From positions 1 to 42,510 of the forward strand of contig JACMLN010000169.1 of the NCBI GenBank assembly GCA_014379585.1: a stretch of 42,510 nucleotides of DNA, in the 5' to 3' direction. The notes under the pieces were generated by a model. It had not been told where the DNA came from and made no database searches. It worked only from the letters and a program-made list of their open reading frames with translations. This DNA is from Gloeobacterales cyanobacterium ES-bin-313. GTDB taxonomy: Bacteria > Cyanobacteriota > Cyanobacteriia > Gloeobacterales > Gloeobacteraceae. The translations under genes and the position numbers were made by a program. Below are positions 13,875 through 42,444 of the stretch, piece by piece (positions within the stretch are counted from its first letter, which is position 1; the number at the start of each line of letters is the position of its first letter).

Positions 13875-16049
13875 TCATGGAGAGGGATTTTGGGTGCCTA
13901 TAGGCTTAAAAGTTGCTGTACCTGCTGGAGTTGTGACGCTAATAATTTTGATCATTTCTCCACTCATCAAAATAGCGTTGATTTGGGTATTAGAGTTTAC
14001 AAAAAATAAGCGCGCAGCGATACCGTCGATCATGACTGAGGTCGCTCCCAGCAAGTTGTTACCACTGATGCTGACAGCTTGGGAAAATGGAGCGTCCACA
14101 ATTGCCAAACTCGAAATCGTCGGTCGCGAAGGAACAGCTAAGTTAGGGTTACTTGTAACCGAGGTATCAGGGGTGATATCAGGGTTATACAACTCCGCAC
14201 TGCTGAAAGAAGTGACCCCAGTCAAGAATGCAATGATGTCGTTTCCTCCAACCACCAGAACTTTGCCGTTCTTTAGTAATGTTGCTGTGTGTCTTGCCCG
14301 ATTCTTGCTCATAGAGGCAGTGATAGTCCAAGCGTCAGTTGTTGGGTCGTATAACTCTGCACTGCTTAAATAGCTAACACCGCCCATGCTTTTGCTGTTA
14401 AAGATGCCTCCCCCGGTGACAAGAACCTTTCCACTAGTCAGCAATGTAGCAACTTGACCAAACCTAGGGGTCATCATAGAGCTAGTAGCACTCCAAGTGC
14501 CAGTTTGTAGGTTGTATACCTCTGCACCATTAGAAGAGATGCTGTTATTGTATCTACCTACTATCAAAACTTTGCCATTGCCCAGTAACGTCGCTGTATG
14601 TCCCCACCTAGTTTCGTTCATCGAGACAGTTGTGTTCCACATGTTTGTTGCTGGGTCGTATAACTCCGCACTGCTTAAATCAACTGGGGTTCCGATTTTG
14701 CCACCATTGTTTTGTCCTCCTGCGATGAGCACCTTACCATTTGCTAGCAAAGTTGATGTATGACGGAAGCGAGGAGTTTTCATAGAGGCAGTTGCCGTCC
14801 ACATGCCAGTTTGCGGGTTGTAGATCTCAGAACTGTCCAAGTCAACTGAGCCTGCTCCCCCAGCTATAAACTCCTTGCTGCCAAATACGGTATTTCTGCG
14901 TCCTCCTGTCACAAGGAGTTTACCGTTGGATAGTAACGAGGCTGCGTGCCCCCACCTTGGCGTAGCCATTGAGCCAGTAACGCTCCAAGTTCCTGTAGAT
15001 GAGTCATACAGCTCTGCACTTCCATTGTCAAACCCACCTACAACAAGCACCTTGCCATTATTCAATAATGTCGCTGTATGTTCATGAACCATGGACATGG
15101 AGCCAGTGTTTGTCCAAGTACCAGTCTGAGGGCTGTAGATTTCTGCACTCTTTTGATAACTGCTGCTATTTTGTCCCCCTACCACCAGAACTGTGCCATT
15201 CGGCAACAAGGTCGCCGTGTGGAATTCTCTGCCCTTGCCTAGTTCACCTGTAGCTGACCAAGTTGGATCCACTACGAGTGGGTAGCGTAATCCTTCAGGA
15301 TCTACCGTCAAACGCAAACGCTTGCCTCCTTCGAGTAACTGCAAGTGGACTGCTGAATCACTGCGCCGCCCGCTGCTATCTACTAACCAGGGTCGCTCGA
15401 TAAGTACACCCCTACCCTGAGCGTCTAGAAATGCGACTCCGCGCCCGATAGAATGCATCTGAACTCCCTGCCCTACCCGCACTCGATAGTCAAAGACCCT
15501 CGGGGCAGTGCTATTTCGTAGATACAAAAATTCTTCGCTCCTGCCTAAGTTGACAACTTGAAGGCTATCAGTGCTTGGATAGGCATTTTTATAGACAAGC
15601 GTTTTACCCTGTAGTTCGGCTTTTGATGTTGATGATCCAAGTGGTTGCACCTCGATCCTCACTGCTCCTCGTTCCACAACAATGGAGCCGTTGTAATGCT
15701 TTGGTAAGAATAGTTGCAGCTTGCATCTTTTAGCCATGGACAGCCACGCCTCTTGCTCAGGAGGCTTTAGTCCTGTTGGATGATGAATATCACTGAACGC
15801 TGTTGCTGCAAGCCCTGCGACTGTTTGCTTATCGAAGCGTCGTGTAGTTTGGGTCCACGATACTACACCTTGTAATTGCTGACGAAGGCTTGGGAATTGT
15901 CTAGCAAGGGTACAGATAAGGCAATCTGTTCGAACGTTATCAGAGAATTGATCCGTGAGGGTAGCTGAACGTAGAGGCGCCAGATCCATGAAGACGATGA
16001 GCAAAGCAGAAATCAGACTTAACCATCGCCACGAAAGGGTAGAAATCAT
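13875..16049 (-). CDS. Kelch-repeat surface protein K1 (7 Kelch units, one IPT domain)
   Basis: A 724-residue exported protein of the four-member Kelch family. The signal peptide is MISTLSWRWLSLISALLIVF..., then DCLICTLARQFPSLRQQL with the conserved Cys-x2-Cys. A beta-rich module follows with [35 protein letters not shown] and LRYPLVVDPTW. From about residue 268, seven Kelch units of ~50 residues ([28 protein letters not shown]) would form one propeller. A C-terminal IPT/TIG-like domain begins near PTISSLAIVDAP. The SD GGAG lies 7 nt before the ATG. The 5' leader resembles that of K2 for about 190 nt. The stop overlaps a downstream ATG (ATGA). The ligand is unknown; Kelch propellers usually bind protein or carbohydrate. 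Confidence 0.9.
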   Translation of the reverse strand: MISTLSWRWLSLISALLIVFMDLAPLRSATLTDQFSDNVRTDCLICTLARQFPSLRQQLQGVVSWTQTTRRFDKQTVAGLAATAFSDIHHPTGLKPPEQEAWLSMAKRCKLQLFLPKHYNGSIVVERGAVRIEVQPLGSSTSKAELQGKTLVYKNAYPSTDSLQVVNLGRSEEFLYLRNSTAPRVFDYRVRVGQGVQMHSIGRGVAFLDAQGRGVLIERPWLVDSSGRRSDSAVHLQLLEGGKRLRLTVDPEGLRYPLVVDPTWSATGELGKGREFHTATLLPNGTVLVVGGQNSSSYQKSAEIYSPQTGTWTNTGSMSMVHEHTATLLNNGKVLVVGGFDNGSAELYDSSTGTWSVTGSMATPRWGHAASLLSNGKLLVTGGRRNTVFGSKEFIAGGAGSVDLDSSEIYNPQTGMWTATASMKTPRFRHTSTLLANGKVLIAGGQNNGGKIGTPVDLSSAELYDPATNMWNTTVSMNETRWGHTATLLGNGKVLIVGRYNNSISSNGAEVYNLQTGTWSATSSMMTPRFGQVATLLTSGKVLVTGGGIFNSKSMGGVSYLSSAELYDPTTDAWTITASMSKNRARHTATLLKNGKVLVVGGNDIIAFLTGVTSFSSAELYNPDITPDTSVTSNPNLAVPSRPTISSLAIVDAPFSQAVSISGNNLLGATSVMIDGIAARLFFVNSNTQINAILMSGEMIKIISVTTPAGTATFKPIGTQNPSP

Positions 16050-16238
16050 TAATAGACTCCAAAGTAGAAATGCAAATCAGGTAAGATAAGTAACGCTTTC
16101 TCGAATCAGGCTTGAAGAAGGAATCCTGAACATTCAAACTTCAACGTTTCTAGTTTTAGTGGGGGTTTAGGCTTGTGAAGAGCTTGGCCTACTGCTTAGA
16201 GTGAGTTGGTGGGTTTCTTTGCTGGGAGGTGTGCTTTT
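16050..16238 (-). promoter_or_regulatory. K1 leader, homologous to the K2 leader
   Basis: On the minus strand this region shares ordered blocks with 18404-18602: AGCACACCTCCCAGCAAAGA far upstream, GAGAAAGCGTTACT in the middle, and TTTCTACTTTGGAGTCTA with the SD just before the ATG. The blocks lie at nearly the same distances from both ATGs. The core promoter was not identified. Confidence 0.55.
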
Positions 16239-16270
16239 TAAATAAAGATTCAGAAGAAGCAAATTTGCGT

Positions 16271-16317
16271 AAAAAAGCTAAATGTGTATCGTAGTGTGGT
16301 TAGCACTATAGCGATAC
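16271..16317 (-). terminator. Possible terminator after the overlapping gene pair
   Basis: GTATCG-TAGTG pairs with CACTA-CGATAC (16286-16317) as an 11-bp stem with a 3-nt bulge. On the minus strand a run of six T follows about 9 nt after the stem. It lies about 190 nt downstream of the stop at 16505 and upstream of the K1 leader. The rest of 16239-16504 shows no gene. Confidence 0.45.
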
Positions 16318-16504
16318 GTCCTCACTTTTGTCAAGCAAGAATTCCTTGTCTTGTCTGATCTTATTTTCAGTACGGGCAATAAGACCGATCTTTCGAAGCA
16401 GAAGTGGTGTGGTTTGCAGATTTGCTATTTTGCCGTCATCTCATCCAAAAAATGATGCGTAGGCCGATCTGTAAGTGCGCTCAAAATTCGCAATTTCCCT
16501 CTTG

Positions 16505-17242
16505 TTAGTACTTGTTGAAGATTGATCTATTTGAGTTTACTTTCATGAAAACAGAGCCATAGAAATGTTCTTGCTGCATTTGAATTTTCGCATCTGCGAA
16601 AATTGCAGCGATCAAGGCTCGCGATAAATTGCCATTAAAAAGTTGGTGAGATGCTTCTGAAAGATCACTAGTCCCATTTGTTTCGATAAACGCTTCCAAA
16701 AGCTGAACATCGCGCTCCACAGTTTCTTCGTGGGCTTGGGCCTGAATCTCTTTGAGCGTGACTTGTTTTTCTGGTCCAAGGTCTTTTAGCAAATGGTCAT
16801 CTTCTCCAACTAGCCCAGCCTCTCCCACATTCCTTTCAAGCCTAGGCAAAGCCTGCCAATCTTCTCTAGATCCAAGTCTTCTCAGAGGTGCATAGTCTGT
16901 GGTTTGGCGGGCGAGGTCTCGGAAAATTGCAAAGATGTCTGCAACCGGACTGGGTGGAGATTCAAGCAATTGCCATTTGAGTTTTAGAAGACGTGCTGAC
17001 TCGTAGAAGGCTCGACCTGCTCTGGGTAAATCCGCTTGTTTCCAGAGCACCCGGTCAATTCTGGCCAGGACTTTGTCAATCTGAAAATCCTCTGGGGGCA
17101 AACACTCCAGGTATTCGAGCAGGTCAGCGACAAAATCCGACCCATTATCGTTCCTGATGGAGCGGACAGGGGCGAAGGGGGCACTCCAGACTAGATCTGA
17201 TTCTGGGTTCTGGTTCTGCGAGTCGGGCGATGCGCCAATCAC
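16505..17242 (-). CDS. Hypothetical protein, second gene of an overlapping pair
   Basis: A 245-residue soluble, mostly helical protein of unknown function. The GTG start at 17242 is well supported by GAAGGAG 7 nt upstream, although it lies 98 nt inside the 3' end of the preceding gene in another frame. Features seen are LPPEDFQIDKVLARIDRVLW, DLPRAGRAFYESARLLKLKW and, near the C-terminus, a compact segment ETNGTSDLSEASHQLFNGN followed by AAIFADAKIQMQQEHFYG. The style is that of conserved hypothetical proteins found with the partner gene, but I cannot name a family. The overlap implies translational coupling. Confidence 0.7.
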   Translation of the reverse strand: MIGASPDSQNQNPESDLVWSAPFAPVRSIRNDNGSDFVADLLEYLECLPPEDFQIDKVLARIDRVLWKQADLPRAGRAFYESARLLKLKWQLLESPPSPVADIFAIFRDLARQTTDYAPLRRLGSREDWQALPRLERNVGEAGLVGEDDHLLKDLGPEKQVTLKEIQAQAHEETVERDVQLLEAFIETNGTSDLSEASHQLFNGNLSRALIAAIFADAKIQMQQEHFYGSVFMKVNSNRSIFNKY

Positions 17243-17858
17243 TGAGAACTCCTTCTATCCAAGAGCGGATCTCGGTTGGTTTGAGGTTGAAAAGATGCTG
17301 ATGTCGGGTATCCAAACATTTTTTCTGATTCCATAATTCGATGGTCATGGCATGGGGTGGGGAACTGCGGGTGCCATCGACTGTGTAAAGATAGGCAATC
17401 GCGGCTGTGCCGATCACCCTTGAGATCGGTTGAATGCCTGCTTCGGCTTTTTGGTGAGCTGCAACTAATCTGGCGCGAAGGGCTGCTGATTTTGCCGTTT
17501 GTGCTTGGCCAATGGTCAGTCTTTCTGAGGCTTCACGCAACACAGCGATGGCTTGCTCAACTTCAGCATAGAAAGCTTCGGTAGGATCGAATAACAAAGC
17601 GGCATCGCGTTCCAAGATCGAAGCGACATCAGCGAATTTAGCAGCACAGAGCAAAGCCTCTCCACCGACTTTCTCAATATGAGCTTTGCCGCTTTGCTTC
17701 CGGTAATTGCGGACATGGCGTTCGTTGCGGGAGGCTTTATTTTTGGCATCCCACCTTCGACGGGGGCATTTTTTCGGATCCCAGCAGTCGAACTTGGCTT
17801 TCACCTCCTTGGCTGAGAGCAGGCAGCACTCTTTACATGGACCTGGGGATGAAGCCAT
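17145..17858 (-). CDS. Hypothetical protein with Cys-rich N-terminus, first gene of an overlapping pair
   Basis: A 237-residue soluble protein. The N-terminus has a possible zinc-binding knuckle: GPCKECCLLSAKEVKAKFDC followed by WDPKKCPRRRW, i.e. C-x2-CC and two more Cys. A strongly basic stretch comes next (KNKASRNERHVRNYRKQSGK), which would suit nucleic-acid binding. The rest is helical. The ATG at 17858 has AGAGGA 9 nt upstream; the TTG one codon before it is less likely. The 3' end overlaps the next gene by 98 nt. A 29-bp repeat containing two ATGCGTAT half-sites lies 63 bp upstream and may be its operator. No family is recognised. Confidence 0.7.
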   Translation of the reverse strand: MASSPGPCKECCLLSAKEVKAKFDCWDPKKCPRRRWDAKNKASRNERHVRNYRKQSGKAHIEKVGGEALLCAAKFADVASILERDAALLFDPTEAFYAEVEQAIAVLREASERLTIGQAQTAKSAALRARLVAAHQKAEAGIQPISRVIGTAAIAYLYTVDGTRSSPPHAMTIELWNQKKCLDTRHQHLFNLKPTEIRSWIEGVLSDWRIARLAEPEPRIRSSLECPLRPCPLHQER

Positions 17859-17920
17859 CAATGCAGATCCTCTAGAAGCCTTTTGCAGCGGGTTTCAAGG
17901 CTCATTCATCACAATATCAC

Positions 17921-17949
17921 AGTTATTTTATGCGTATTTTATGCGTATA
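17921..17949 (+). repeat. Direct repeat with tandem ATGCGTAT, copy 1
   Basis: The sequence is AGTTATTTTATGCGTATTTT followed by ATGCGTAT. It matches 21731-21759 in all but one substitution and one inserted A, in the same orientation and 3.8 kb apart, with the Kelch K2 gene between. The two inner ATGCGTAT boxes are one helical turn apart. Confidence 0.7.
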
Positions 17950-18403
17950 GCTTTACCCCTAAACAGCTATTGAGAAGGGAAATACTCAATACTTCGATTG
18001 GATATAGCACGGTGTGAGTAGATGTTCACCAACGAGGGCAAATCTATGGCAGAGGCTTCTCCATGCTGGCTCGACGCTGAACTACCATTAAATTTTGCCC
18101 TTTCCCCTGATCAGACTTTCAAGAGACAATCTCTAGATTTTTCAAGGTTGTTTTGGCTGAGCACCGCACTTCGCTCCCTGACAATCGGCACAGCCTGGAT
18201 TTCTGCAATGGTTTTGAGCAAAGCCTAGACTCTGTCATGATTACGGCTGAACGTCGCACCGACTTTCTGGTGAGTTCCCAAGATCAAAACGAGTCATTGC
18301 GTCTTGACATAAGTTAAAATGCATCGCTGTAGTTCTATACAAGCTGCAACATCAGATCAAGTGCTATTGTCTAAAAATTACTCTTTCTTTCTACCCCCCC
18401 TCA
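17950..18403. other. Intergenic stretch with weak coding traces
   Basis: No confident gene. A frame at 18022-18228 (+) and an overlapping stop-free frame ending near 18318 could be fragments of one decayed gene (the second reads ...VVLAEHRTSLPDNRHSLDF...), but neither has a recognisable domain and the second has no early start codon. Confidence 0.3.
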
Positions 18404-18602
18404 AAGAGCACACCCCCAGCGAAGAAACTCGCAAACTCGCTTTAAGATTCGAGGACAAGCTTTATCTTGTCGCTTAAGACCTACTGAAGCAAGTAACGCT
18501 CAAAACTGAGCACCAACTAACGCTTATCTAATTTGTCTTGAGAAAGTATTACCAATCTGGTTTTTGCCTTGCTGAACTGCCTTTCTATTTAGGAGTCTAA
18601 CC
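18404..18602 (+). promoter_or_regulatory. K2 leader, homologous to the K1 leader
   Basis: It shares ordered blocks with the K1 leader, including GAGCACACCCCCAGCGAAGA (18404 onwards), GAGAAAGTATTACC, and TTTCTATTTAGGAGTCTAA with the SD (AGGAG, 18591-18595), 7 nt before the ATG. An extra feature here is a small palindrome, GACAAG-CTTTAT-CTTGTC, near 18455-18473. Confidence 0.55.
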
Positions 18603-21437
18603 ATGTTCTTTTCCCTCTCACGCCGCTGGTTCAGCCTCTTTGCTACTTTGGTTATTGTTCTTGCAAACTTGACGCCTCTAGGTGCTGCTGCCTTCATAAA
18701 CTCGGTGCCCAAAAGGGGAGCAGCAGATTGCCTGAGCTGTTTGCTTGCTGAACAATTTCCTGGGCTTCGCCAACAATTGCAAGGGGAGATGCCATGGAAG
18801 GTGGTCAAACAGCGCTTCGGCAAGCGCATGGCTGTAGGATTTACGACAACACTTGCGACCAGCATACAACCACCAAAAGATTTGCAGCCGCTTGAAAAAC
18901 AAGCGTGGATGGCTATGACTGAGCGGAAGCAGCTGAAACTGTTTATGCCACGGCAATACAACCATTCCACTATCGTTGAAATGGGGGCGATTCGGCTGGA
19001 AGTAAAGCCCATTGGAGCACAGTCAGTTAGAGCTGAGCTTCAGGGAAAGGTTCTCGTCTACAAGAATGCCTTTCCAAACACCGATAGTCTTCAGGTCGTT
19101 AAGCAGGGTAAGAGCGAAGAATTTTTGTACCTGCGCAACAAGACCGCGCCGAGAGTTTTCGACTACCGGGTACAGGTAGGACAGGGAGTACATGTGCAAT
19201 CTGTGGCAGGCGGCGTTGCATTTTTAGACAGCCACGGCAAGGGGGTACGTATCGAGCGGCCTTGGTTGATCGACAGTACAGGACAACGTAGTGAATCGGC
19301 AGTGCATTGGCAGGTTCTAGAGAAAGGAAAGCATCTTCGGTTAGTAGTCGAGCCTGAGGGATTGCACTATCCGCTGTTGGTGGACCCCACTTGGACCACC
19401 ACTGCTTCTCTCAGTACACCTAGGGCAGGTCACACAGCCACTTTATTGCCCAACAGCAAGGTGCTTGTGGTCGGGGGAAGCAACAGCAGCACTTTAAGCA
19501 GTGCAGAGGTGTACGACCCATCGACAGGTATTTGGAATACGACAGGCTCGATGAGCATAGGGAGATACGGTCACACAGCCACACTGCTAAAAAATGGCAA
19601 GGTTCTGGTAGCAGGAGGAAGAGACAGCGACGCTGTCTCAAGCAGTGCAGAGGTGTACGACCCATCGACAGGTATTTGGAATACAACAGGCTTATTGAGT
19701 GCAGCTCGGTACGCTCACACAGCGACATTACTACCAAATGGCAAAGTCCTGGTTGCAGGAGGAGGAATCGGCGGAAATAGCTTCAGCAGCGCGGAGTTGT
19801 ACAACCCATCGACAGGTACTTGGAGCAACACTACTTCCATGAGTACGCTCAGGGAATCTCACACATCAACCTTATTGAAAAATGGCAAGGTGCTTGTTGT
19901 AGGCGGCAGCTTCTACCGGAACGACGATGGTGGTGGTGCCACTTGGGGCGGTTTGAGCAGTGCGGAGTTGTATGACCCAGCAATAGGCACCTGGAGCGAC
20001 ACTGGTTCCATGAGGACAGTGAGATACGGTCACAAAGCAACGTTATTGAACAATGGTAAGGTTCTCGTGGCGGGGGGACTCGATGTCAGTGGGTTAAGCA
20101 GTGCTGAGCTGTACACACCTGAGACTGGAGTATGGAGCACCACAGGTTCCATGAGTTTAGCAAGGTACGACCACACAGCCACCTTATTAAAAAATGGCAA
20201 GGTTCTCGTTGTAGGAAACGCCTCTGACTACAACAGTACAAACAGTGCAGAATTGTACGATCCTGCAACAGGTCTGTGGCTCAGAACTGCCACCATGATC
20301 GTGCCGAGATCCAGTCACACAGCAACATTACTGAAAAGTGGCAAGGTGCTTGTGGTAGGGGGAGGCGACGGCAGTAGCATTTTAAGCAGTACGGAATTGT
20401 TCTCCCCATTGGCTCGGACCTGGAGTGCCACGAGTTTCATGACCTCAGCTAGGGTGTACCATACAGCGACTTTATTGCTGAATGGAAAGGTTCTAGTAAC
20501 GGGTGGCTTTAACTTCAACATCGGTGGTAGCGGCAATTTGAGTAGTGCAGAATTGTACGATCCGATAACTGGTATCTGGAACACCACAGGCTCCATGAAC
20601 GCAACCAGATACATTCACACAGCCACATTACTCCCAAATGGCAAGGTGCTTGTGACGGGAGGAGTAAGTAGCAACACGAGTGCGGCAGAGTTGTACGATC
20701 CAGCAGTGGGCACTTGGACTTATACATCCTCTATGATTACGAATAGGGAAGGTCACACAGCCACATTACTCCCAAATGGCAAGGTGCTTGTGGTTGGAGG
20801 CAACGTCGGGGAATTGAGCACTGCTGAATTGTACGATGCAACAACAGGTGTATGGAGTAGTACGGGATCCCTTAACACCGTAAGGTACTTTTTCACAGCA
20901 ACCTTATTGAAAAATGGCAAGGTGTTGGTGACAGGAGGACAAAATGGCCTCAGTATTTTCAGTAGTGCGCAAGTGTATGATCCGGCTTTAGGTACTTGGA
21001 GCGATACTGCTTCCATGAATACGGACAGGTCAGGTCACAAAGCAACGTTACTGGCAAATGGCAAGGTACTTGTTTCAGGGGGCTACAACGACAGCGAAAC
21101 TTTGAGCAGTGCAGAAGTATACGATCCAGTTGCGGGCACTTGGAGCACCACAGGTTCCATGAGTACAGTTAGGGAATCTCACACATTAACCTTATTAAAA
21201 AATGGCAAGGTGCTTGTCGCAGGGGGAAGAGGTGATAGTACCGGTACTACAGAGTTGTATGACCCAATAACAGGGACTTGGGGTAGCACTTCTCCCCTGT
21301 TTGTGCTTCGGTACTCGCAAACGGCCACGTTGCTAAAAAACGGCAATGTCCTTTTAGCGGGGGGCGACGGCGGTAGCGATGGTGGCGAACTGGACAGTGC
21401 TGAGATATACGGCTTATTGAGTGTTTCTCCTCCATAG
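18603..21437 (+). CDS. Kelch-repeat surface protein K2 (14 Kelch units)
   Basis: A 944-residue exported protein. The signal peptide ([20 protein letters not shown]...) is followed by [18 protein letters not shown] with the conserved Cys pair. The N-terminal module is shared with the paralogues ([50 protein letters not shown]). From about residue 262, fourteen Kelch units of 46-53 residues run to the end, enough for two seven-bladed propellers. There is no C-terminal IPT domain; the protein simply ends [13 protein letters not shown]. Units 1-2 share a 45-nt block that is identical at 19496-19540 and 19640-19684, a sign of recent unit duplication. AGGAG precedes the ATG. The gene is bracketed by direct repeats at 17921 and 21731. 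Confidence 0.92.
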
Positions 21438-21760: not shown

Positions 21761-21814
21761 AAATGAGCAGGTTTCTAAATGCGGTAAATGGGTTTTGAAG
21801 TGGAGAAAAGGGGT

Positions 21815-21978: not shown

Positions 21979-23740
21979 GCTGTTGGCGAATTCAACAAGG
22001 GCTGAACATTTTTGTTTCTGGCAATAATTTAGGCTACTACTCCGAGTAATTTTGGAGAGCTTGCCATGTCTTTGCAACCCCAGCCTGTTAACCCCGTCCC
22101 GCTTCAGGCTGCCAAAATTGCCAAAGCTGCTTTTCCAAAGGGCAATACGTTCATGCTCTTGCGTGACAAACTCGGCACCCTCTTCACGAATGAAGACTTC
22201 GCGCAGTTGTTTGCCTCCAGAGGACAGCCAGCTTTGTCCCCGTGGCAGCTCGCTTTTGTCACGTTGATGCAATTTGCTGAGGGATTAACAGACCGACAAG
22301 CCGCAGATGCAGTTCGCGCCCGACTTGACTGGAAGTATGCTCTGTCATTGGAATTGACTGACTCTGGCTTCCATTACTCGGTGCTCAGCGAATTTCGTGA
22401 CCGCCTAGCTGGGGACTCTCCAGAAAATCTATTGCTTGACCGATTGCTGGAGGTTTGCCGAGAACAGGGATGGTTGCGCAACCGTGCCAAGCAACGCACG
22501 ACTCCACCCATATTCAAACTGCGGTGCGCACCCTCAACCGCTTGGAAATGGTGGGTGAAACCCTACGCTCGGTACTCAACATCTTGGCGATGGCTGCTCC
22601 GGATTGGCTGCGTACGGTGATCGCTCCCGATTGGTTTGATCGCTACAGTGTGCGAGTGGAAACCTACCGCCTTCCTGCCTCAGACCGTGAGCGAACTAGT
22701 CTAGCTGAGTGTATCGGAGCCGATGGTTACCGTCTACTGGAGACCATCTATGATGACCCATCGGCTCCAGACTGGTTACGGCAATTGACTGCTATGGAGT
22801 TCCTGCGCCAGATGTGGATTCAACAGTTCCATGCCGAATCTGGATGGGTAGTCTATTGGAGGGATCTAAAAGATTCGCCTCCCACTGCGCAATCGCTCCA
22901 TTCTCCCTACGACCCAGATTGCCGTTTTGGCAACAAGCGTTCCACACAATGGGTTGGCTACAAAGTTCATGTGAGCGAAACCTGCCAGCCGGATAGTCCA
23001 CACCTGATCACCCATATCGAAACCACGACAGCCACAAGCAGTGATAACTTGGTGCTTAACAAAATTCACGGTGCTCTCGCTCAGAAGGAATGTCTACCCG
23101 GGGAACATCTTGTGGATACAGGCTACACCTCGGCAGAGCAACTGGTTAGTTGTCAAGCTGGGTACGGTGTCGAACTGATTAGCCCAGTAAGAGCGGATCT
23201 CAGTTGGCAGGCCAAAGCCAATCAGGGTTTCGATGCGACGGCGTTTGAGATTGATTGGCACAACCAAACTGCACGCTGTCCGGCAGGCCAAACCAGCACC
23301 AAGTGGAAGCTTGGTCAGGATGACCATGGTAATCCTCACATCAAGATTCTATTTCGGCAAAAGACCTGCACAGGCTGCGACTTTGCCCCAGACTGCACTC
23401 GGGATAAAACGGGACGTTCTATCACTGTGCACCCACAGGTCGAACATGAGGCGTTGCAACAAGCAGGAGCCAACCAGAAGACGGAAGCCTTCCGTCAAGA
23501 ATATGTGCTACGAGCAGGGGTAGAAGGAACGATTGCTCAGGCAGTGCAAGCATTTGAGATGCGTCGGTGTCGGTATCGAGGTCTTGTAAAAACGCATCTT
23601 CAACAAGTAATCACGGCGACAGCAATAAACTGGGTGCGGATTGCGGATTGTCTGATGGGAGAGCCATTTGCCCGAACGCGCACTTCCCACTTTGCTGCGC
23701 TGGCTGACAGTGCCTAGAGGCTGCTGAATTCGCCAACAGC
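21979..23740 (+). mobile_element. IS1182-family-like insertion sequence (about 1.76 kb)
   Basis: Terminal inverted repeats are GCTGTTGGCGAATTCAACA at 21979-21997 and its complement at 23722-23740, 18 of 19 matching. They enclose one transposase reading region. Length, terminal arrangement and the transposase type fit IS1182. The 4-5 bases outside the ends (ACGAA on the left, GTCAG on the right) do not match, so no target duplication is visible. The element is inactive because its transposase is frameshifted. Confidence 0.8.
22066..23717 (+). pseudogene. IS1182-family DDE transposase, frameshifted
   Basis: The first frame, from the ATG at 22066 (SD GGAGAG), reads VNPVPLQAAKIAKAAFPKGN, then LSPWQLAFVTLMQFAEGLTD, and stays homologous until KQRT near base 22500. 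The protein then continues in the next frame as DSTHIQTAVRTLNRLEMVGE to TAG at 23717. A single missing base at about 22500 (ACG-AC instead of ACG-GAC) explains this exactly. The break falls at the first catalytic Asp (the family's TDST motif). The later DTGYTSAEQL and the RAGVEGTIAQA region, which carry the other acidic residues, are intact. No slippery sequence is present at the break, so programmed frameshifting is unlikely. The full protein would have about 550 residues. Confidence 0.88.
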
Positions 23741-30206: not shown

Positions 30207-31046
30207 CTATGATGTAGCGCCCCGCTTTTTGCTGAGTACAGTCTTCCTACGTCGGAATTGAGCACTCACCCCCAGCGCTAGGGCGGCTCCCAGCCAAGAT
30301 GTGGTTACTGGTTCCGGTATAGGTTGGAAGTTTATGTTGTCTACGAGCAGCCCACTTTGAACAGTAGTGTCGTTTCTGTTTGCCACCAGGAACTGTAGCG
30401 TGTAGGTTCCTGCTCCCAATGATAGTGACACCGAGTTAAAACGAGTGTCTGAATCGAAGGACTGGGTTCCTGAAGCAATGAGGGTGCTGCCGAGGACACT
30501 TGCCAGAGGATCGGCCTCCACTGAGAATCCGAAATTTCCAGGAAAGACAACGCATGGTTCATTCTCTACGTTGCACTGTACGTAACCCCCTGGTGAGAGG
30601 AAGTACGAAGCAAAGTCATCGTTAGATGCTGGCGTCCGCAGAGTTTCGTTGGTCAGAAAGTTCCAGCTAAAGTTCAGTGTCCCAGCTGTATCGAGGGTGA
30701 AGGTTTGAGAAATCGCTGACCCTCCAGTCACATTACTAGCAATCAGACTCCCCGGTGTCAGACCCAGAAAAGTTTCCAAGCTAGAGACATTACCTGTACT
30801 GGGGGTAGTCAAAAGGGCTGCGAAGTTCCCGTCTGTGGGAGAACCTGAGCAAGGCGTGGTACTGCCACAGATGGCTGTATTGTCCACAACTGCTTGATTG
30901 CCCGTGCTGAGGGTACTCCAATTTGAAAAGTCACCTGTCTCAAAACTGCCATTCTCCACACCAAAGGCTTGGACTGGGGTCGTGAAGGTACAAAGGCTCA
31001 CCAGCAATAGCCCACTAATTCCTGCACTGATCATGTTGGTTGTCAT
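30207..31046 (-). CDS. PEP-CTERM protein downstream of Kelch K3
   Basis: A 279-residue exported protein. The signal peptide is residues 1-28 (ISAGISGLLLVSLCTFTTPV, QA-F). The mature N-terminus NGSFETGDFSNWSTL is the usual opening of PEP-CTERM jelly-roll domains of the DUF642 or NSF-type group. A beta-rich body includes TAGTLNFSWNFLTNE, and the domain ends with LLVDNINFQPIPEP. IPEPVT at about residue 243, a hydrophobic stretch and RRRK form the sorting signal. GAGGA precedes the ATG. The start is 24 nt after the K3 stop on the same strand, so the two are very likely one operon; a Kelch protein and a sorted surface protein would then be made together. Confidence 0.87.
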   Translation of the reverse strand: MTTNMISAGISGLLLVSLCTFTTPVQAFGVENGSFETGDFSNWSTLSTGNQAVVDNTAICGSTTPCSGSPTDGNFAALLTTPSTGNVSSLETFLGLTPGSLIASNVTGGSAISQTFTLDTAGTLNFSWNFLTNETLRTPASNDDFASYFLSPGGYVQCNVENEPCVVFPGNFGFSVEADPLASVLGSTLIASGTQSFDSDTRFNSVSLSLGAGTYTLQFLVANRNDTTVQSGLLVDNINFQPIPEPVTTSWLGAALALGVSAQFRRRKTVLSKKRGATS

Positions 31047-31070
31047 TTTGGTTGTCCTCGTGAAGGGAAA

Positions 31071-34000
31071 CTATGGGGTAACAGTGAACTTGGTCGGGCT
31101 TGTGTTGAAGCCATTGGGAGTGATCACAACGATTGCCCCACTCCTTGCTCCAGCAGGGACAACGGCTTGAATTTGGCTATCGGAGAGCACAGTGAAGAGG
31201 GCCGAAGTGGTGCGGAATCGCACATTAGTCGTACCAGTGAAGTTTGTGCCGTCGATAGTGACTGTAGTTCCTACAGGGCCGCTCGTCGGGCTGAAGCTCG
31301 TGATGGTTGGTGGGTTGTTAAGTACAGTCAGGCTATTTGTACTGGTGGCACTACCCGTAGGAGTATTGATAGTAATTGGGCCACTAGTCGCCCCAGTTGG
31401 CACTTGCAGATTGACTTGACTGTCTGAGACATACCCGAAGCTAGCACTGAGACCATTCACATTCACTGAGGTGACACCCGTGAAGCCTGAGCCTGTGAGT
31501 GTGACAATCGAACCGACAGCGGCACTCGCGGGACTAAAGCTGGTAATGGCTGGCGCGTTCAGGCCGTATAGTTCCGCACTGCTTTCGTAGCCGCCGATGT
31601 TGCCATTAAATCCCGCTGCTACAAGGAGTGCACCATTGGGCAATAGTGTTGCTGTATGATCGAATCTAGCTTTGTTTAAGGAGCCGGTATTGCTCCATTT
31701 ACCACTTTGCGGATCAAATAACTCAGCACTGCTGAAAGAGGAAAAAACGATATCTCTTCCTCCTGCTATGAGGACTGTGCCATTAGGTAGCAATGTTGCT
31801 GTATGTTGGCTTCTTGCCGTATTCATGGAGCCAGTGGTTGACCAAGTTCCAGTTGATGAATCGTACAGCTCGGCGCTGCTTAAAGGGAAATTACCGCTAT
31901 TTCCCCCTCCTGCGACAATAACTGCTCCACTAAGAAGCATTGTTGCTGTATGTTCAGATCGAGCTATGCTCATCGAGCCAGTGACACTCCAAGCACCAGT
32001 CTGTGGGTCGTACAGCTCTGCACTGCTAATGGTGAAGCCTCCCGCAACAAGAACTTTACCATTTTGTAGCAATGTGGCTGTGTGGAGATATCGAGCCGTT
32101 GTCAAGGAGCCAGTGGTACTCCAGGTACTTGTTGAAGGGTCGTACAACTCCGCAATGCTCAAATAGCCATTGCTGTTTTGTCCCCCCGCCACAAGAACCT
32201 TGCCATTTTTAAGCAACGTCGCTGTGTGACCGCTCCTAGGTGTTGATAGGGAGTTTACGGTGCCCCAGATGCCTGTTGCTGGATCGTACAATTCTGCACT
32301 AGTTAATGCTGCGTTGTTATTTAATCCCCCAGTCACAAGAACTTTACCACTGGACAACAATGTTGCTGTATGAAAAGACCTAGGCGTAGACATTGAGTTT
32401 GTGGTGCTCCATGTGCCTAATAACGGGTCGTACAATTCTGCACTAGTTGATGCTGTGTTGTTATTGAATCCCCCAGTCACCAGCACCTTGCCATTTTGCA
32501 GCAAAGTCGCCGTATGCTTCTGCCTTGCGGTGCCTAGGTTGCCAGTGGTTGTCCAAGTACCTGTTGTCGGTGGATCGTACAACTCTGCACTGCTGGTAGT
32601 AGTGCTGCTGCTGGTAGATCCCCCCGCGATAAGAACTTTGCCATTGGACAAAAAGGTCGCTGTGTGATTTGCCCTAGCTGTGTTCATGGAGCTAGTGAGA
32701 CTCCAAGTTCCTACTATTGGGTCGTACAATTCAGCACTGTTTAAGTAGCTGCTACTCAAGCCTAATACCCCGCCTGCCACAAGAACTTGGCCATTCGGTA
32801 ACAGCGTCGCTGTGTGATCTGTCCTAGTTACGTTTAGGAAGCCAGTGCTGCTCCAAGTGCCAGTTTGCGGGTCATATAGCTCTGCACTGCTATCACTGTT
32901 GTTATTGAGTCCCGCTGCAACGAGAACCTTACCATTGGTCAATAACGTTGCCGTATGACGCCACCTGGCCGTATTTAGAGAACCAGTGGTCACCCAAGTC
33001 CCTGACTGCGGGTCGTACAACTCAGCAGTGTTACCGTTGACGAATCCCCCTGCCACAAGAACTTGGCCATTATTCAGCAATGTCGCCGTGTGAACTGATC
33101 TAGCCGTGCTCATGGAGCCAGCGGTATTCCAAGTTCCTGTTGTCGGGTCGTACAACTCCGCACTGCTCAGATAGATGCCAACAATATTGATGTTAAATCC
33201 CCCTGTAACGAGTACCTTGCCATCGGGCAGTAGCGTCTCCGTCTGAAGTGCTCTGGCCGTGGCCATTGAGCCAGTGGTGCTCCAGGTACTTGTTGAAGGG
33301 TCGTACAACTCCGCACTGCTCAAAAAGCCATTGCTGTTTTGTCCCCCCGCGACGAGAACCTTGCCACTAGGCAGCAACGTCGCTGTGTGTTCACTTCTGG
33401 CTGTAGACATTGAGCCAGTATTGCTCCAGGTGCCAGAACTTGGGTCGTACAAGTCTGCACTGTTGCCAGATCCCCCTGCGACAAGGACTTTGCCATTGGG
33501 CAGCAATGTTGCTGTGTGGTCTTGCCTAGCTGCTGTCATTGAGCCAGTAGTCGTCCAAGAAGGGTCAACGACCAGCGGATAGCGCAATCCTTGAGTCTTG
33601 ACCACCAAGCGTAAATGCTTGCCGCCTTCAAGAATTTGCCAATGCACTGCCGATTCACTGCGTTGACCATTGCTGTCCACCAACCAGGGCTTTTCAATGC
33701 GTAATCCCTGGCTTCGACTATCAACAAACGCAATACTGCCACCCTCAGACCGTACTTGCACGCCTTCTCCTAGCTGCACCTTGTAATCGAATACCCTTGG
33801 TGCTTTGCTGTTGCGTAAGTACAAAAATTCTTCGCTTTTGCCTCGTTGGACAACCTGAAGGCTATCGGTGTTGGGGTAGGCATTTTTATAGACAAGCGTT
33901 TTGCCCTGTTGTTCAGCTTTGACCGACTGTGCTCCAAGGGGCAGCACTTCTACTCGTACTGCTCCTTGTTCAACGATAGTGGTACCGGAGTAGCGTTGTG

Positions 34001-34352
34001 GCAAGAACAATTGCATCTTCCCTCGTGCAGCCATCGCTAGCCATGCCTGTTGCTCAAGAGGCTTCAGTCCTACTGGTGTTTGGCTAGCGGTAGAAGAAGC
34101 TACCGCAGCCAGTCCTGTGACGGTTCGCTTGTCAAAATGTCGAGTGGTGACAGTCCAGGGCACCTCTCCTTCTAGTTGTTGGTGCAGGGATGGAAATTGC
34201 TCTGCTAGCGAACAACTAAGACAATCACCTTTCACCTCTACTGAGAACTGGGTAGTAGTAAAGGCAGCAGCACTCGAAGGCATGAGGTCAATGAAGACCA
34301 ACAGCAAAATGCTCAATAGACTGAAGCAGCGACGCGAAAGGGTAGAGAACAT
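31071..34352 (-). CDS. Kelch-repeat surface protein K3 (14 Kelch units, two IPT domains)
   Basis: A 1093-residue exported protein and the largest member of the family. The signal peptide (MFSTLSRRCFSLLSILLLVF...) precedes DCLSCSLAEQFPSLHQQL with the Cys pair. The shared module ([50 protein letters not shown]) runs to about residue 267. Fourteen Kelch units ([23 protein letters not shown]) follow, then two IPT/TIG domains (APAITSFSPASAAVGSIVTL and PPTITSFSPTSGPVGTTVTI). The start is fixed by alignment with the other three paralogues; only a weak TGAG precedes it. The leader resembles that of K4. It is probably co-transcribed with the PEP-CTERM gene downstream. Confidence 0.92.
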   Translation of the reverse strand: MFSTLSRRCFSLLSILLLVFIDLMPSSAAAFTTTQFSVEVKGDCLSCSLAEQFPSLHQQLEGEVPWTVTTRHFDKRTVTGLAAVASSTASQTPVGLKPLEQQAWLAMAARGKMQLFLPQRYSGTTIVEQGAVRVEVLPLGAQSVKAEQQGKTLVYKNAYPNTDSLQVVQRGKSEEFLYLRNSKAPRVFDYKVQLGEGVQVRSEGGSIAFVDSRSQGLRIEKPWLVDSNGQRSESAVHWQILEGGKHLRLVVKTQGLRYPLVVDPSWTTTGSMTAARQDHTATLLPNGKVLVAGGSGNSADLYDPSSGTWSNTGSMSTARSEHTATLLPSGKVLVAGGQNSNGFLSSAELYDPSTSTWSTTGSMATARALQTETLLPDGKVLVTGGFNINIVGIYLSSAELYDPTTGTWNTAGSMSTARSVHTATLLNNGQVLVAGGFVNGNTAELYDPQSGTWVTTGSLNTARWRHTATLLTNGKVLVAAGLNNNSDSSAELYDPQTGTWSSTGFLNVTRTDHTATLLPNGQVLVAGGVLGLSSSYLNSAELYDPIVGTWSLTSSMNTARANHTATFLSNGKVLIAGGSTSSSTTTSSAELYDPPTTGTWTTTGNLGTARQKHTATLLQNGKVLVTGGFNNNTASTSAELYDPLLGTWSTTNSMSTPRSFHTATLLSSGKVLVTGGLNNNAALTSAELYDPATGIWGTVNSLSTPRSGHTATLLKNGKVLVAGGQNSNGYLSIAELYDPSTSTWSTTGSLTTARYLHTATLLQNGKVLVAGGFTISSAELYDPQTGAWSVTGSMSIARSEHTATMLLSGAVIVAGGGNSGNFPLSSAELYDSSTGTWSTTGSMNTARSQHTATLLPNGTVLIAGGRDIVFSSFSSAELFDPQSGKWSNTGSLNKARFDHTATLLPNGALLVAAGFNGNIGGYESSAELYGLNAPAITSFSPASAAVGSIVTLTGSGFTGVTSVNVNGLSASFGYVSDSQVNLQVPTGATSGPITINTPTGSATSTNSLTVLNNPPTITSFSPTSGPVGTTVTIDGTNFTGTTNVRFRTTSALFTVLSDSQIQAVVPAGARSGAIVVITPNGFNTSPTKFTVTP

Positions 34353-34644
34353 AGCAAAACTCAGGATAGTGAGGCACAGAAGGGCGAGAGCCGTTAGATC
34401 AGGTGTAAAGATTGAGGCGATTGGGGTAAATCGCCCTGGGAAGCTTTGGATTAGTAGCTAAGAAAAAGGAACCAGCGTTTAATCGAGCTATACAACCAGG
34501 CAGATAAGAAGAAATGTATACGATGGAGAGGCGCTTTGGGTGTCTCCTGGAGCACACCTGCGGTAAATCTTCCCTGAATCTTCTTTGTATGCCCACGTTC
34601 TGGCGCAACGATCCGTGCATTATAGGTCTTAAACCCTTGCCCTG
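34353..34644. other. Upstream region of K3 with dispersed repeat
   Basis: The first ~50 bp before K3 are homologous to the K4 leader (shared blocks around GCTCTCGCCCTTCTGTGCCT and CCTGAGTTTTGCTATG on the minus strand). A roughly 50-bp element at 34591-34643 recurs at 37383-37433. No gene is supported here. Confidence 0.45.
34591..34643. repeat. Dispersed ~50-bp repeat, copy 1
   Basis: The core GCGCAACGATCCGTGCATTA, then AGGTCTTAAACCCTTGCCC, aligns with 37383-37433 (GCGCAACGAGTCGTGCATTA, then GGGTCTGAAACCCTTGTCCC), roughly 80% identical by eye. Part of it (34594-34611) also recurs inverted at 34937-34954. Confidence 0.6.
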
Positions 34645-34954
34645 TCAGTTTTTTAGGGAAATGCCAATGGTGAAAGCGTTAGGCCGGAGATCGATATTGA
34701 CCAAGTAAGGTGTCTGGCCTGATTTGTTGATCGAAGCCATAAGCGTTGCTGCTGTTGCCCTCGACGCCCCGGTCTAGTCGCTGCCTGCTCAATGCCTTCT
34801 TGGTGGTGATGATCCGCTGTTGTGCCCCGATGTCGTCCCCGGCGCTGGAGTTGGAGCTAGGTCTGAAGGTGCCATATTGAATCAGAGAGTACTTAAAGGC
34901 TCTTGAAGAGCGGGTTTCAGCCTCTGCCCCCTGACCTCGTTGCGCCAGAACGTG
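34594..34954. repeat. Segment bounded by a perfect 18-bp inverted repeat
   Basis: CACGTTCTGGCGCAACGA at 34594-34611 recurs as its exact complement at 34937-34954, giving a 361-bp segment with terminal inverted repeats. It could be a MITE-like insertion or a scar of recombination between dispersed repeats. The interior carries the fragmentary coding trace at 34645-34990. Confidence 0.5.
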
Positions 34955-36889: not shown

Positions 36890-37787
36890 GATCTTCAACC
36901 TGATGATGGGAAGATTTCGGGTGTTGCGCAACGAAGTAATGATTGGGCTTAGAACCTTTCACTTGGAGCCCGATACTGAGCCGCGCTTGCAAAAGAATTC
37001 TACTTGCCTTTATTACTCCGCTGTGCAACGCCCTTCTAATCTAAAGAACTGATAATGGCCTTATGGATACAATCGCATTGAAGATGAAAACAGTAATCAT
37101 CAAAGATAAGAAGATGGGGGAATTTGGGAAGCAAGAGTAAGTAGAAACCTTCTTTAGAAATCACACGACAATCTTAGAATTGTATGGTTAATAATAGGGT
37201 AAGCTTTAGTTAAATCTTGATTAAATTTGAAATATAATTATCAAAATAGGATGGTGGCTGACATTTAGCGATTTATACTGACTTGATTTAATCTGGAATC
37301 ACTAGCCAAGGGCGGATTAGAACTTGTACTTAACCCTCGGATTGCTGATCAATATCCCATAAACAGTGTGCTTCAGCGGATTACCCACGAGATGCGCAAC
37401 GAGTCGTGCATTAGGGGTCTGAAACCCTTGTCCCATCTACCTTACAGCTATAAACATGGGTGACGCTTTGCGAGTCTACCGATGTCTGAGTCTCAACCCA
37501 CCCCTTTTGCTCAAAGTGCTTGACTGATCAACCAGATTTTTGAAGAAACCGCGCACGGTGCTGGAATCCTTTTTCCTACCTCCCCCAGACTTGTAACGCG
37601 GGACGGCCTGCCCGTCATCCCTGTAAGGAGAGGGGAACTTCTAGGGAGGGTAGTAGGTGGTGGATGGTTGATCGGCGGATCGTCCTACCACCAGGCGCAT
37701 TAACTGAGAGCAGCATCAAGCTTTGTCATCTCGGTGGTTGTGCCTGGTTATTTACTTCGCCCTGTTTCGTAGAAGCACTTCAATTCC
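36890..37787. other. Long intergenic region without a supported gene
   Basis: About 900 bp. 37050-37310 is strongly A+T-rich and may hold promoters for the flanking divergent genes. 37383-37433 is copy 2 of the dispersed ~50-bp repeat. 37530-37730 is G+C-richer, with only short frames. Nothing else was recognised. Confidence 0.4.
37383..37433. repeat. Dispersed ~50-bp repeat, copy 2
   Basis: It aligns with 34591-34643 in the same orientation over its whole length, ending AAACCCTTGTCCC. It stands alone in an intergenic region and is not flanked by an inverted partner. Confidence 0.6.
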
Positions 37788-38993: not shown

Positions 38994-39031
38994 TATTGAG
39001 CCATGTTTCTCCTTGAAGACCCATGCTCTGC

Positions 39032-39708
39032 TCAAAGGTTCTGGAGAAAGGTTTGCAGGTCAGGCGAATGGATAATCGCATCAGCCAACTGTTGAAGCTT
39101 CTCGGTACTTTCGCTAGCTTGAATCTGGGACACAACTTGGGCGCTTAGAGAGCCGAATTTGAGGGTCATGAACTGAAGAAGCATCTCGCGTTGTCCCCTG
39201 AGTTCGCCCTCTTGCCGTCCTTCTTCCATGCCTTCTTGGAAAACACGGGTATTGCGTAGACTGTCAATTTTGAGCATAGTTTCAATCTCCCGACGAGTGA
39301 GGTTAGGGAATTTGGCTACGAAAATGGTTTCGAGCATTTCCATTATCTGCGCTTTGCGTTCTGATGACAGGGGTTCTGCCTTCAGCCGAGGGAGTAAATC
39401 TCCCACTTTTAATTTGAGACTGCGTTTGGGATGGTGAGTAGAGCCAAGACCTGGAAAGCAATTGACCCTTGCTCTCCTTGGTGATCCTCCAAGTAGAATA
39501 CCTTCACTTTGCCACTGGCTTGAAATTCCTGGTAATTGATGGGGAAGCCAGGATCCATGGAGTGGCGAGCAAATAGAATAGCCGCTTGCCAATCGCCATC
39601 AAAACGCTTGCGGTGAATGTAGATAGCAATTTGAGCGAATAGTCTTCGGTAGATGGCGTTGTCTTTTTGGAACTGGCATTCTAGGAAGTAGAGGGTTATC
39701 AACAACAT
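39032..39708 (-). pseudogene. Rpn/DUF2887-type nuclease-transposase relic
   Basis: Two minus-strand frames carry consecutive parts of one cyanobacterial Rpn-type (PD-(D/E)XK, recombination-promoting nuclease) protein. The 5' frame, 39708-39409, has FLECQFQKDNAIYRRLFAQI (with the family's E-x-Q motif) and ends AFQVLALLTIP. The 3' frame, to 39032, carries RLKAEPLSSERKAQIMEMLE, then KFPNLTRREIETMLKID and the family-typical EGMEEGRQEGELRGQREMLL. A frameshift near 39430-39480 separates them. About 50 residues are missing at the N-terminus, including the first catalytic Asp region. The gene is therefore inactive. Confidence 0.78.
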
Positions 39709-39788
39709 AAAACATGCGTATCAGGAGTATCTCCAATAATTGGCCGAAGCCGCACATGCTTTTCGATATACAATAGTAAAGCTGGAGT

Positions 39789-40895
39789 ATGTCGTTGTAT
39801 GGGTCAGCTATGCCTTTTGCTGCTGGTGACGTAATTGCTGAACGCTATCAATTGCAAAGGCGCCTTGGTATAAACGGCCCTCGGGAAACCTGGCTTATCC
39901 ACGACCTGCAGCAGGGTTGTGCTTGGGTACTCAAACTCCTTTACTTTGGTGGAGACACCCAGTGGCAGGAACTCAAACTTCTAGAGCGTGAGGCCGAAAC
40001 CCTCCAGTCTCTGCACCATCCTGCCATCCCGCACCACAGCACAGCTTTCTGGAGCGAACGCTTGGAAGGACACTACTTCTGCCTGCTTCAGCAATATATT
40101 CCAGGAATTACCTTGGCCGAACAGTTGCACAGAGGGGTGCGTTACGACCCCAATGAACTGGAACGGCTGATCATCTCCATGTTGAATGTTCTTGAGTACT
40201 TACACAGCCAATCTCCGAGTGTAGTGCATCGGGATATCAAGCCCAGTAATATCCTAATAGGTGAAGATGGTGCGTTTTACTTGATCGACTTCGGAGCCGT
40301 ACAGGCCAAAGCGAGTGGTCGAGGAACAATAACTGTAGTAGGCACCTTCGGTTACATGCCCCCTGAGCAGTTTGCAGCGCAATCGCTCCCAGCATCGGAT
40401 TTATACGCACTTGGGGCTACACTGGTTCATCTAATTAGTGGGGTTGACCCCGTTGATCTCCCTCGCGAGGGTCTGCGGATGCAGTTTGCTGGGAGGATAA
40501 ATCTAGACAAAGGTTGGCAAATATGGCTTGAGCGAATGGTAGAACCAGAGTTAGAGTGGCGCTGGAGCAGTGCCTCAGAAGCATTGGATCAGTTTAAGGA
40601 ACGCGATGGGCTTCCAAGCTCTGAGGCATTTGAGCAGCTGCTGGAACTGGGAGAGACAGGCACTAGCCAATCTGTTGATATTCACCAAAAGAAATATCCA
40701 CTGTGGAAGTTAACGGCAATGGGTGGGATGTATACTTTTATGGTGCTTGCCGTGCTAATGAGTACATTTATCGTCCAGAAGATCTTGAGAATTGATAACT
40801 CGCAACTGACAGTAATTGCTGGCTTCCTAATTTCCTCGTTAATAATTGGAGTAATTGCAGAAGCCTGCAATTATCGCGGTTCCAACCGTCAATAA
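39789..40895 (+). CDS. Membrane-anchored serine/threonine protein kinase
   Basis: A 368-residue Hanks-type kinase. The catalytic Lys is K49 (WVLKLL), the catalytic loop is HRDIKPSN at 147-154 with D149, the metal-binding DFG is at 167-169 and the activation segment ends GTFGYMPPEQ at 185-194. The glycine loop is degenerate (LGINGPRETW), as in several cyanobacterial Pkn proteins, so activity is likely but not certain. Two transmembrane segments at about 308-330 and 338-360 place the kinase domain in the cytoplasm with almost no external domain. A second ATG at 39810 (MPFAAGDVIAERY) is an alternative start. It lies 190 bp upstream of K4 on the same strand. Confidence 0.9.
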   Translation: MSLYGSAMPFAAGDVIAERYQLQRRLGINGPRETWLIHDLQQGCAWVLKLLYFGGDTQWQELKLLEREAETLQSLHHPAIPHHSTAFWSERLEGHYFCLLQQYIPGITLAEQLHRGVRYDPNELERLIISMLNVLEYLHSQSPSVVHRDIKPSNILIGEDGAFYLIDFGAVQAKASGRGTITVVGTFGYMPPEQFAAQSLPASDLYALGATLVHLISGVDPVDLPREGLRMQFAGRINLDKGWQIWLERMVEPELEWRWSSASEALDQFKERDGLPSSEAFEQLLELGETGTSQSVDIHQKKYPLWKLTAMGGMYTFMVLAVLMSTFIVQKILRIDNSQLTVIAGFLISSLIIGVIAEACNYRGSNRQ

Positions 40896-41082
40896 GTTTT
40901 ACCGCAGATGTACTCTATAAAACATGGAGAACTGGCTTTCATAAGGTACATTTCTTCTTGACTACTTATTAAGTCTTGCCTTCGTAAAAGTATTGTGCAT
41001 CTTTTTCTCGAACTATCACTTAGATAAGTACTTTTGCCCAACTGCTCTTGTCCTTCTATGCCTTTCTACCCTGAGTTTTGCC

Positions 41083-42444
41083 ATGTGCTCTACCCTTCCT
41101 CGTCGCTGCTTCCGACTGTTCGTTGCACTGCTGATCGTGCTTATGGATTTGATGCCGTTGAGCGCTACTGCTCTCCAAACCCAATTTGCAGTGGCGGTGC
41201 AAGCAGATTGCCTCAGTTGTACCCTTGCCAAGCAATTTCCAGTTCTTCACCCACAACTGCAAGGCGAAGTGAAATGGGAAACTCGGAAACAGCTAATCGG
41301 TAAGCAAACCGTAGTAGGACTTGAGACGACAGTCGCTTCTAGTAATATCCACCCACCCATGGGACTCAAACCCCTAGAGCAACAAGCGTGGATGGCCATG
41401 GCGCAAAGGGAGCAGATGCACCTATTTTTACCCCACACCTACAACGGCAAAACAGTTGTCGAAAAGGGAAAAGTACGGGTGGAAGTGCAGCCTCTTGGAG
41501 CACAGTCGGCACATTCAGAACGACAGGGTATGGCGCTTGTCTACAAGAATGCTTATCCCAACACAGATAGCCTTCAAGTCGTCAAGCAAGGTCAAAGTGA
41601 GGAGTTTTTGTACCTGCGAAATAGCAATTCTCCAAAGGTTTTTGACTACAAGGTGAAAGTCAGCCAAGGAGTACAGATTCGCGCGATGGAAGGCAGTATT
41701 GCGTTTGTAGACAGCCGAGGTCAAGGAGTACGCATCGAGCGACCCTGGTTGGTGGATAGCACTGGCAAACGCAGTGAGACGGCTGTGCATTGGCAGATCC
41801 TTGAGGGAGGAAAGCGCTTGAGGCTGGTAGTGATGCCTTTGGGATTGCGCTATCCGCTGGTCGTGGATCCGTCTTGGACGACTACTGGCCCCATGAATAA
41901 GGCTAGGTACTATCACACAGCATCACTGCTACCTAACAGCAAGGTTCTTGTAACGGGGGGGACAGACTCCGATGGCAACTATTTTAGCAATGCAGAGTTA
42001 TACGACCTAACATCAGTAAGTCTGAGTTACTACCCTCTTCCATCGTGCCGAATTGTTGATACCAGAAACACTGCCTCATCAAACCTGCCTATCGGTAGTC
42101 CAGTGACTTACACAGTCAACCAAGGAGGTGCTACTGTCGACTACAGCTCTCAAGGTGGAAGTGCTTCAGGCTGTGGTATTCCAACTGACGCTAAGGCTGT
42201 CTTCTTCAACTTTGTTGCTGTTAATGCCTCAGGCTCTGGCCATCTCCAAGCTTGGCCTTTTGGTACCTCCATTCCAACTGCCAGCGTTCTGAACTACGCC
42301 AATCTTCCTGGATTCAACATTGCAAATGGTATTGTCTTATCTGTCTGCGATCCATCAGCAACAACTTGCAGCAAAGATTTGAATGTGCAGGCAAATCAAT
42401 CAACCATCAAGTTGGTCGTGGATGTGGTTGGATACTTTAAATAA
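41083..42444 (+). CDS. Chimeric Kelch-family protein K4 (one Kelch unit plus VDVVGYF domain)
   Basis: A 453-residue exported protein. The start at 41083 (MCSTLPRRCFRLFVALLIVL) is set by alignment with K1-K3; the frame extends to 40993. The shared N-terminal module is complete: DCLSCTLAKQFPVLHPQL with the Cys pair, [39 protein letters not shown] and LRYPLVVDPSW. Only one Kelch unit follows (WTTTGPMNKARYYHTASLLP), and directly after the next SNAELYD the sequence changes to SLSYYPLPSCRIVDTRNT. From there to the end (~140 residues) it is a bacterial surface-type domain with the pattern R.VDTR...AVFFNFVAVN...VDVVGYF. The repeat array has thus been replaced, with the junction at a unit boundary. 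The leader resembles that of K3. Confidence 0.88.
   Translation: MCSTLPRRCFRLFVALLIVLMDLMPLSATALQTQFAVAVQADCLSCTLAKQFPVLHPQLQGEVKWETRKQLIGKQTVVGLETTVASSNIHPPMGLKPLEQQAWMAMAQREQMHLFLPHTYNGKTVVEKGKVRVEVQPLGAQSAHSERQGMALVYKNAYPNTDSLQVVKQGQSEEFLYLRNSNSPKVFDYKVKVSQGVQIRAMEGSIAFVDSRGQGVRIERPWLVDSTGKRSETAVHWQILEGGKRLRLVVMPLGLRYPLVVDPSWTTTGPMNKARYYHTASLLPNSKVLVTGGTDSDGNYFSNAELYDLTSVSLSYYPLPSCRIVDTRNTASSNLPIGSPVTYTVNQGGATVDYSSQGGSASGCGIPTDAKAVFFNFVAVNASGSGHLQAWPFGTSIPTASVLNYANLPGFNIANGIVLSVCDPSATTCSKDLNVQANQSTIKLVVDVVGYFK

Follow-up and report, generated by a model that had tools for sequence, protein, structure and literature searches.

The four Kelch-repeat genes (K1-K4) of the window, i.e. the whole stretch of 42,510 nucleotides that was analysed, and two further genes of the same genome (K5 and K6) are best explained as a lineage-specific family of paralogues in a deep-branching cyanobacterium of the Gloeobacteraceae. 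They would encode Kelch beta-propeller proteins that are exported and probably bind a ligand. This reading is given a probability of about 0.62. We infer that the propellers are the binding parts and that the proteins are probably periplasmic or surface-bound; as modular exported proteins, they form a family of an ordinary type.

According to this model, a signal peptide would direct export of the protein. It would be followed by a module whose first half (residues ~31-140) is private to the lineage and whose second half (~144-264) belongs to a recurrent type of exported beta-domain. The last strand of the module, VDP(T/S)W-TTG, would complete the truncated last Kelch repeat and thereby close the ring, and the C-terminal TIG or VDVVGYF domains may serve as stalk, attachment or additional binding parts. 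Old duplications would have been followed by recombination between paralogues, loss of repeats in K4 and exchange of tails, all under purifying selection.

Gene set and copy number

The window corresponds to a whole contig (C195) of a 4.26-Mb genome assembled in 198 contigs (Table 1). The genome contains six copies of the N-terminal module: those of K1-K4 in the window, one in K5 (contig C56, 7 Kelch repeats and a K4-type tail) and one in K6 (contig C111, 14 Kelch repeats, twin of K2). No Kelch_4 domain was found outside K1-K6 among the matches listed for the genome. The initial annotation had described K1-K4 as sharing an N-terminus, carrying 7, 14, 14 and 1 Kelch repeats and differing by their C-termini; this anatomy and the positions given for it are accurate, and the expected multiplicity of linked paralogues is borne out by six copies, four of them linked. 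The most likely start codon of K4 is the ATG at 41083 rather than the upstream TTG at 40993, because ~30 nt located 5' of the ATG can be aligned in all six copies. A Shine-Dalgarno-like GGAG or GAG lies within ~30 nt ahead of the ATG in most of them.

Table 1. Position of the K genes, their modules and associated features in the window
Feature	Position	Strand	Description
K1	13875..16049	-	724 aa; signal peptide, N-module 1-264, 7 Kelch repeats, one diverged IPT/TIG
K2	18603..21437	+	944 aa; signal peptide, N-module 1-264, 14 Kelch repeats, no C-terminal domain; twin: K6
K3	31071..34352	-	1093 aa; signal peptide, N-module 1-266, 14 Kelch repeats, two TIG domains
K4	41083..42444	+	453 aa; signal peptide, N-module 1-265, 1 Kelch repeat, VDVVGYF domain; relative: K5
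N-module of K1	15258..16049	-	
N-module of K2	18603..19394	+	
N-module of K3	33555..34352	-	
N-module of K4	41083..41877	+	
VDVVGYF domain	42031-42441		in K4; other matches on contigs C56, C47, C114, C90, C22, C117, C113, C120, C36 and C190
Segment duplicated at contig C111	17975..21680	+	83.6% identity over 3.76 kb; K2/K6 and flanks
Frameshifted transposase	22066..23717	+	DUF772 + DDE_Tnp_1_6; sole full-length copy in the genome

N-terminal module

The shared N-terminal region spans 264-266 residues with its signal peptide, of which ~235 belong to the mature protein. Its identity reaches 58-67% among K1-K4 and 55-88% across K1-K6, the closest pairs being K2/K6 (88%) and K4/K5 (79%). In K1-K4, the motif D-C-L-x-C is invariant, and YPL(V/L)VDP(T/S)W is found at the end of each module. 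The signal peptides of K2, K3, K5 and K6 carry a Tat-like SRRxF motif; that of K4 has PRRCF and that of K1 lacks the first R.

Pfam detects only DUF7948 (PF25778) on the module, below cut-off and over the second half. Four of the six members match (best E 0.0045), and K3, whose match is confined to the second half of the profile, scores 14.7 bits for a gathering cut-off of 27. The profile-profile match between the module and DUF7948 is also weak. A tblastn search of the module against plasmids gave weak matches, all in its second half and mostly to actinobacterial DNRLRE-type proteins; the module aligns at two places inside single Streptomyces proteins. The corresponding actinobacterial domain sits in proteins annotated with DNRLRE, RHS/YD, LamG and PA14 domains. 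A profile of twelve actinobacterial sequences aligns with module residues ~144-264 over 121 columns with a probability of 94.7, compared with at most 19.3 for 100 column-shuffled controls and 0.1 for the reversed module. Furthermore, all six modules outrank all of 3000 shuffled modules against this profile. These comparisons show that residues ~144-264 belong to a recurrent type of exported domain, which in actinobacteria is located ahead of DNRLRE, RHS, LamG and PA14 domains. The domain that caps SBBP propellers in Gloeobacter, DUF7948, may be a more distant relative.

Residues 31-120 match neither the actinobacterial profile nor DUF7948, and the first half of the module (~31-140), which includes the CxxC motif, looks private to this lineage. 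The initial view that the module has no known family name thus holds for residues ~31-140 only and is superseded for ~144-264 by the actinobacterial domain. A sequence search of the module against solved structures retrieved mainly designed beta-trefoils over ~33 residues, which were taken as chance matches, and the AlphaFold model of the module is weak (pLDDT 43).

Kelch arrays and ring closure

The arrays consist of tandem repeats of ~45-55 residues in which GG, Tyr and Trp occupy fixed positions, and score above the Pfam cut-offs for Kelch. A repeat-derived HMM detects 7, 14, 14, 1, 7 and 14 of them in K1 to K6, respectively. The initial annotation had considered the arrays as variable; the counts sit instead at 7 or 14, apart from K4, an apparent remnant with its single repeat. 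Variability within the unit is found in the loop that follows the GG pair (2-23 residues), the remainder having a length of 39 residues in 44 of 51 units. In Kelch propellers whose structure has been solved, such loops line a binding face.

In K1-K6 alike, the final Kelch repeat is cut off after its first part, and the module end, (V)DP(T/S)W.TTG.M or a slight variation of it, aligns with the second half of a repeat. The array therefore has complementary ends, as in shared-blade propeller closure. At the sequence level, VDP(T/S)W thus supplies the half that the truncated last repeat lacks; it belongs to the propeller and is probably the strand that closes it. A more far-reaching proposal, in which the module would serve as a cap for assembly, nucleating propellers of 7 or 14 blades and closing them, with closure acting as a filter on gene and blade recombination so that mainly whole-propeller changes survive, is unlikely.

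Seven repeats would form one propeller and 14 most likely two tandem propellers (7+7), because the family includes 7-repeat members and because there are precedents: repetitive WD40 arrays peak at 7 and 14 blades, and the 14 blades of WRAP fold as two 7-bladed propellers (PMC9218822). The multiple-of-7 rule was noticed after the fact and has about four independent lineages behind it. AlphaFold gives a weak model of K2 (pLDDT 55.7), which splits closer to 265-516 plus 522-940 than to 7+7. Acquisition of 14 repeats by duplication of a whole propeller was considered and rejected, as repeats i and i+7 show no clear excess of identity; if such a duplication happened, its trace has been erased.

Alternatively, the K proteins might be copper-radical oxidases or other Kelch enzymes (galactose oxidase/GlxA type). 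In favour of this, GlxA is both their best NCBIfam match and the first hit in the fold search. However, the score (143 bits) is far below the GlxA cut-off (800), and generic Kelch repeats explain these matches. Moreover, the Kelch regions are entirely devoid of Cys, and therefore the Cys-Tyr cofactor cannot form. A copper-radical oxidase is thereby refuted at its cofactor residues, and an enzymatic identity of this kind is very improbable overall.

C-terminal domains

The diverged IPT/TIG domain of K1 was detected with an in-family HMM (E 8e-13) and was not called by Pfam. The VDVVGYF domain that ends K4 and K5, for which Pfam has no name, gives 11 matches in the genome, carried by about ten varied exported proteins. 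Its partners, named by eye, include an SGNH-hydrolase-like protein, a propeller-like protein, TIG arrays and other exported repeats. Searches of 58 relatives found no copy of this domain; distant relatives of it are present in Streptomyces proteins, some of which have PKD or LamG annotations. Exported proteins throughout the genome have therefore genuinely exchanged tails, and the earlier proposal of a constant exported N-terminal region combined with exchangeable C-terminal parts is supported by the fusion of the K4/K5 tail to several other exported proteins.

Duplication, recombination and selection

Pairs of modules other than the twins display a dS above ~1.6 and, where computable, an omega of 0.10-0.17. 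Module omega is 0.21 for K2/K6 and 0.29 for K4/K5, and the Kelch segments of K2/K6 range from 0.24 to 0.41 at the segment level. With omega values of 0.1-0.4, these old copies evolve under purifying selection; segment-level omega gave no sign of diversifying selection, and no hypervariation was seen. K-gene GC and GC3 match those of the neighbouring genes, so that composition gives no signal of horizontal transfer.

K2 and K6 lie with their flanks in a duplicated segment. Their dS is 0.07 in repeats 12-14 and 0.10 in the first half of the module, and rises up to 0.94 in repeats 1-4. When synonymous-type sites were shuffled 5000 times, 2 shuffles were as uneven, which indicates recombination or conversion between the two genes.

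These patches are among the observations that could favour the view of the initial annotation, namely a surface-diversification system, serving recognition or adhesion, in which a constant export module drives interchangeable propellers that would vary fast from one strain to another. The six paralogues, four of them linked, the exchangeable tails and the unusual likeness of two non-adjacent repeats of K3 (2 and 10, 86% nucleotide identity) point in the same direction. However, purifying selection acts throughout, Kelch counts stay at 7 or 14, and the twins K2 and K6 have both kept 14 repeats, which mostly match in register from repeat 5 on. Nor was any reverse transcriptase, recombinase or silent cassette found among the window ORFs scanned, or any slippery tract in the K genes by a tandem-repeat finder. 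The key signs of an actively varying surface system were thus not found, and fast diversification of this kind is quite unlikely.

K4 has six repeats fewer than K5; a single repeat is left between its module and its tail. Mis-assembly of K5 was ruled out as the origin of K4, since their differences (dS ~0.3) are spread over module and tail. No single donor stands out clearly for the repeat that remains, which gives no exact deletion breakpoint. As a single repeat cannot form a propeller, K4 could be a deletion relic within a slowly decaying family of which only K1-K3, K5 and K6 function. Against this, its module and tail are open and constrained (the tail with an omega of 0.13 versus K5), which suggests either residual function or a recent deletion. 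The decay of the family holds a small but real probability.

Neighbourhood of the K genes

The K genes had been placed among mobile-element remnants. The frameshifted DUF772/DDE transposase downstream of K2 agrees with this description, which is otherwise weak. A remnant of a DUF2887/DUF4351 protein is found at 39032-39592. Intergenic stretches (34591-34646 and 37394-37621; L008 4230-4475) are 77-86% identical to a stretch of contig C111 and possibly represent a dispersed element. On the same contig, the DNA located upstream of K6 is 82% identical to positions 16759-16993, within a region (16505-17861) occupied by two overlapping ORFs in different frames and without Pfam match.

The window also includes two receiver-type response-regulator genes (2762-3278 and 3883-4403), which are near-tandem duplicates with 69.5% nucleotide identity, and a direct repeat of ~79 bp (82% identity, 8110-8187 and 8920-8998) that adjoins two membrane-like ORFs. 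Four exported proteins with PEP-CTERM-like ends are encoded at 890-1858, 10234-11004, 11433-12287 and 30207-31046.

Distribution and relationships with known systems

The full module was found neither in 58 relatives by protein search nor, by profile search, in 389 other genomes of the class sample; this order is thinly sampled, with nine genomes. Two pattern scans of 84,980 GTDB 220 species genomes, by short patterns that can miss diverged copies, retrieved none, and none was found in viral contigs. Matches in the phylum sample (E 0.01-0.08) are short and partial, and several are broken by stops. The K proteins match no defence family in PADLOC, and a search of the available literature found nothing on DUF7948 or on Gloeobacter Kelch proteins.

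A comparable layout is seen in the DUF7948-SBBP proteins of other Gloeobacteraceae, in which a true DUF7948 ending in PLVIDP directly precedes an SBBP propeller, followed in one case by a TIG domain. In contrast, the K modules remain below the Pfam cut-off, the K repeats are Kelch and not SBBP, and the genome studied here has no true DUF7948. The unnamed actinobacterial domain resembles the homologous module residues ~144-264 in its YPVxIDP end and in its occurrence in proteins with exchangeable exported domains; it differs by the lack of the CxxC-containing first half, and no Kelch is annotated in the examples listed. Other Kelch proteins of Gloeobacteraceae (~350-630 aa) also combine Kelch repeats with apparent signal peptides, but their N-termini are unrelated and their repeats far more diverged.

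The K arrays can also be compared with the highly repetitive beta-propellers, which include WRAP and Kelch-type members (Pereira and Lupas 2022, PMC9218822). Both have tandem similar blades and peaks at 7 and 14 (WD40 in the latter), and partial arrays are read there as fragments. However, K blades average ~50-67% identity, K3 being the highest, and most arrays fall at or below the 60% line of highly repetitive propellers: mean identity by offset is mostly 0.61-0.67 in K3, mostly 0.56-0.63 in K2, 0.51-0.60 in K1, 0.52-0.61 in K5 and 0.53-0.57 in K6. Furthermore, the K proteins begin with a signal peptide and an N-terminal domain, whereas highly repetitive propellers are fused instead to a STAND ATPase.

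Biological significance

The K family would at most be a candidate for surface recognition. If the module did act as an assembly cap, the binding surfaces of these exported proteins would diversify slowly and under the control of structure, in a way peculiar to this lineage of cyanobacteria. The genome also holds a VDVVGYF tail domain that has no name, is absent from the relatives searched and is spread over about ten exported proteins, and an unnamed domain of actinobacterial exported proteins is now linked to a cyanobacterial family. Finally, with 1, 7, 7, 14, 14 and 14 blades behind one constant cap, the K proteins form a small natural series that bears on how blade number is set, and a test bed for ring closure by a preceding domain.
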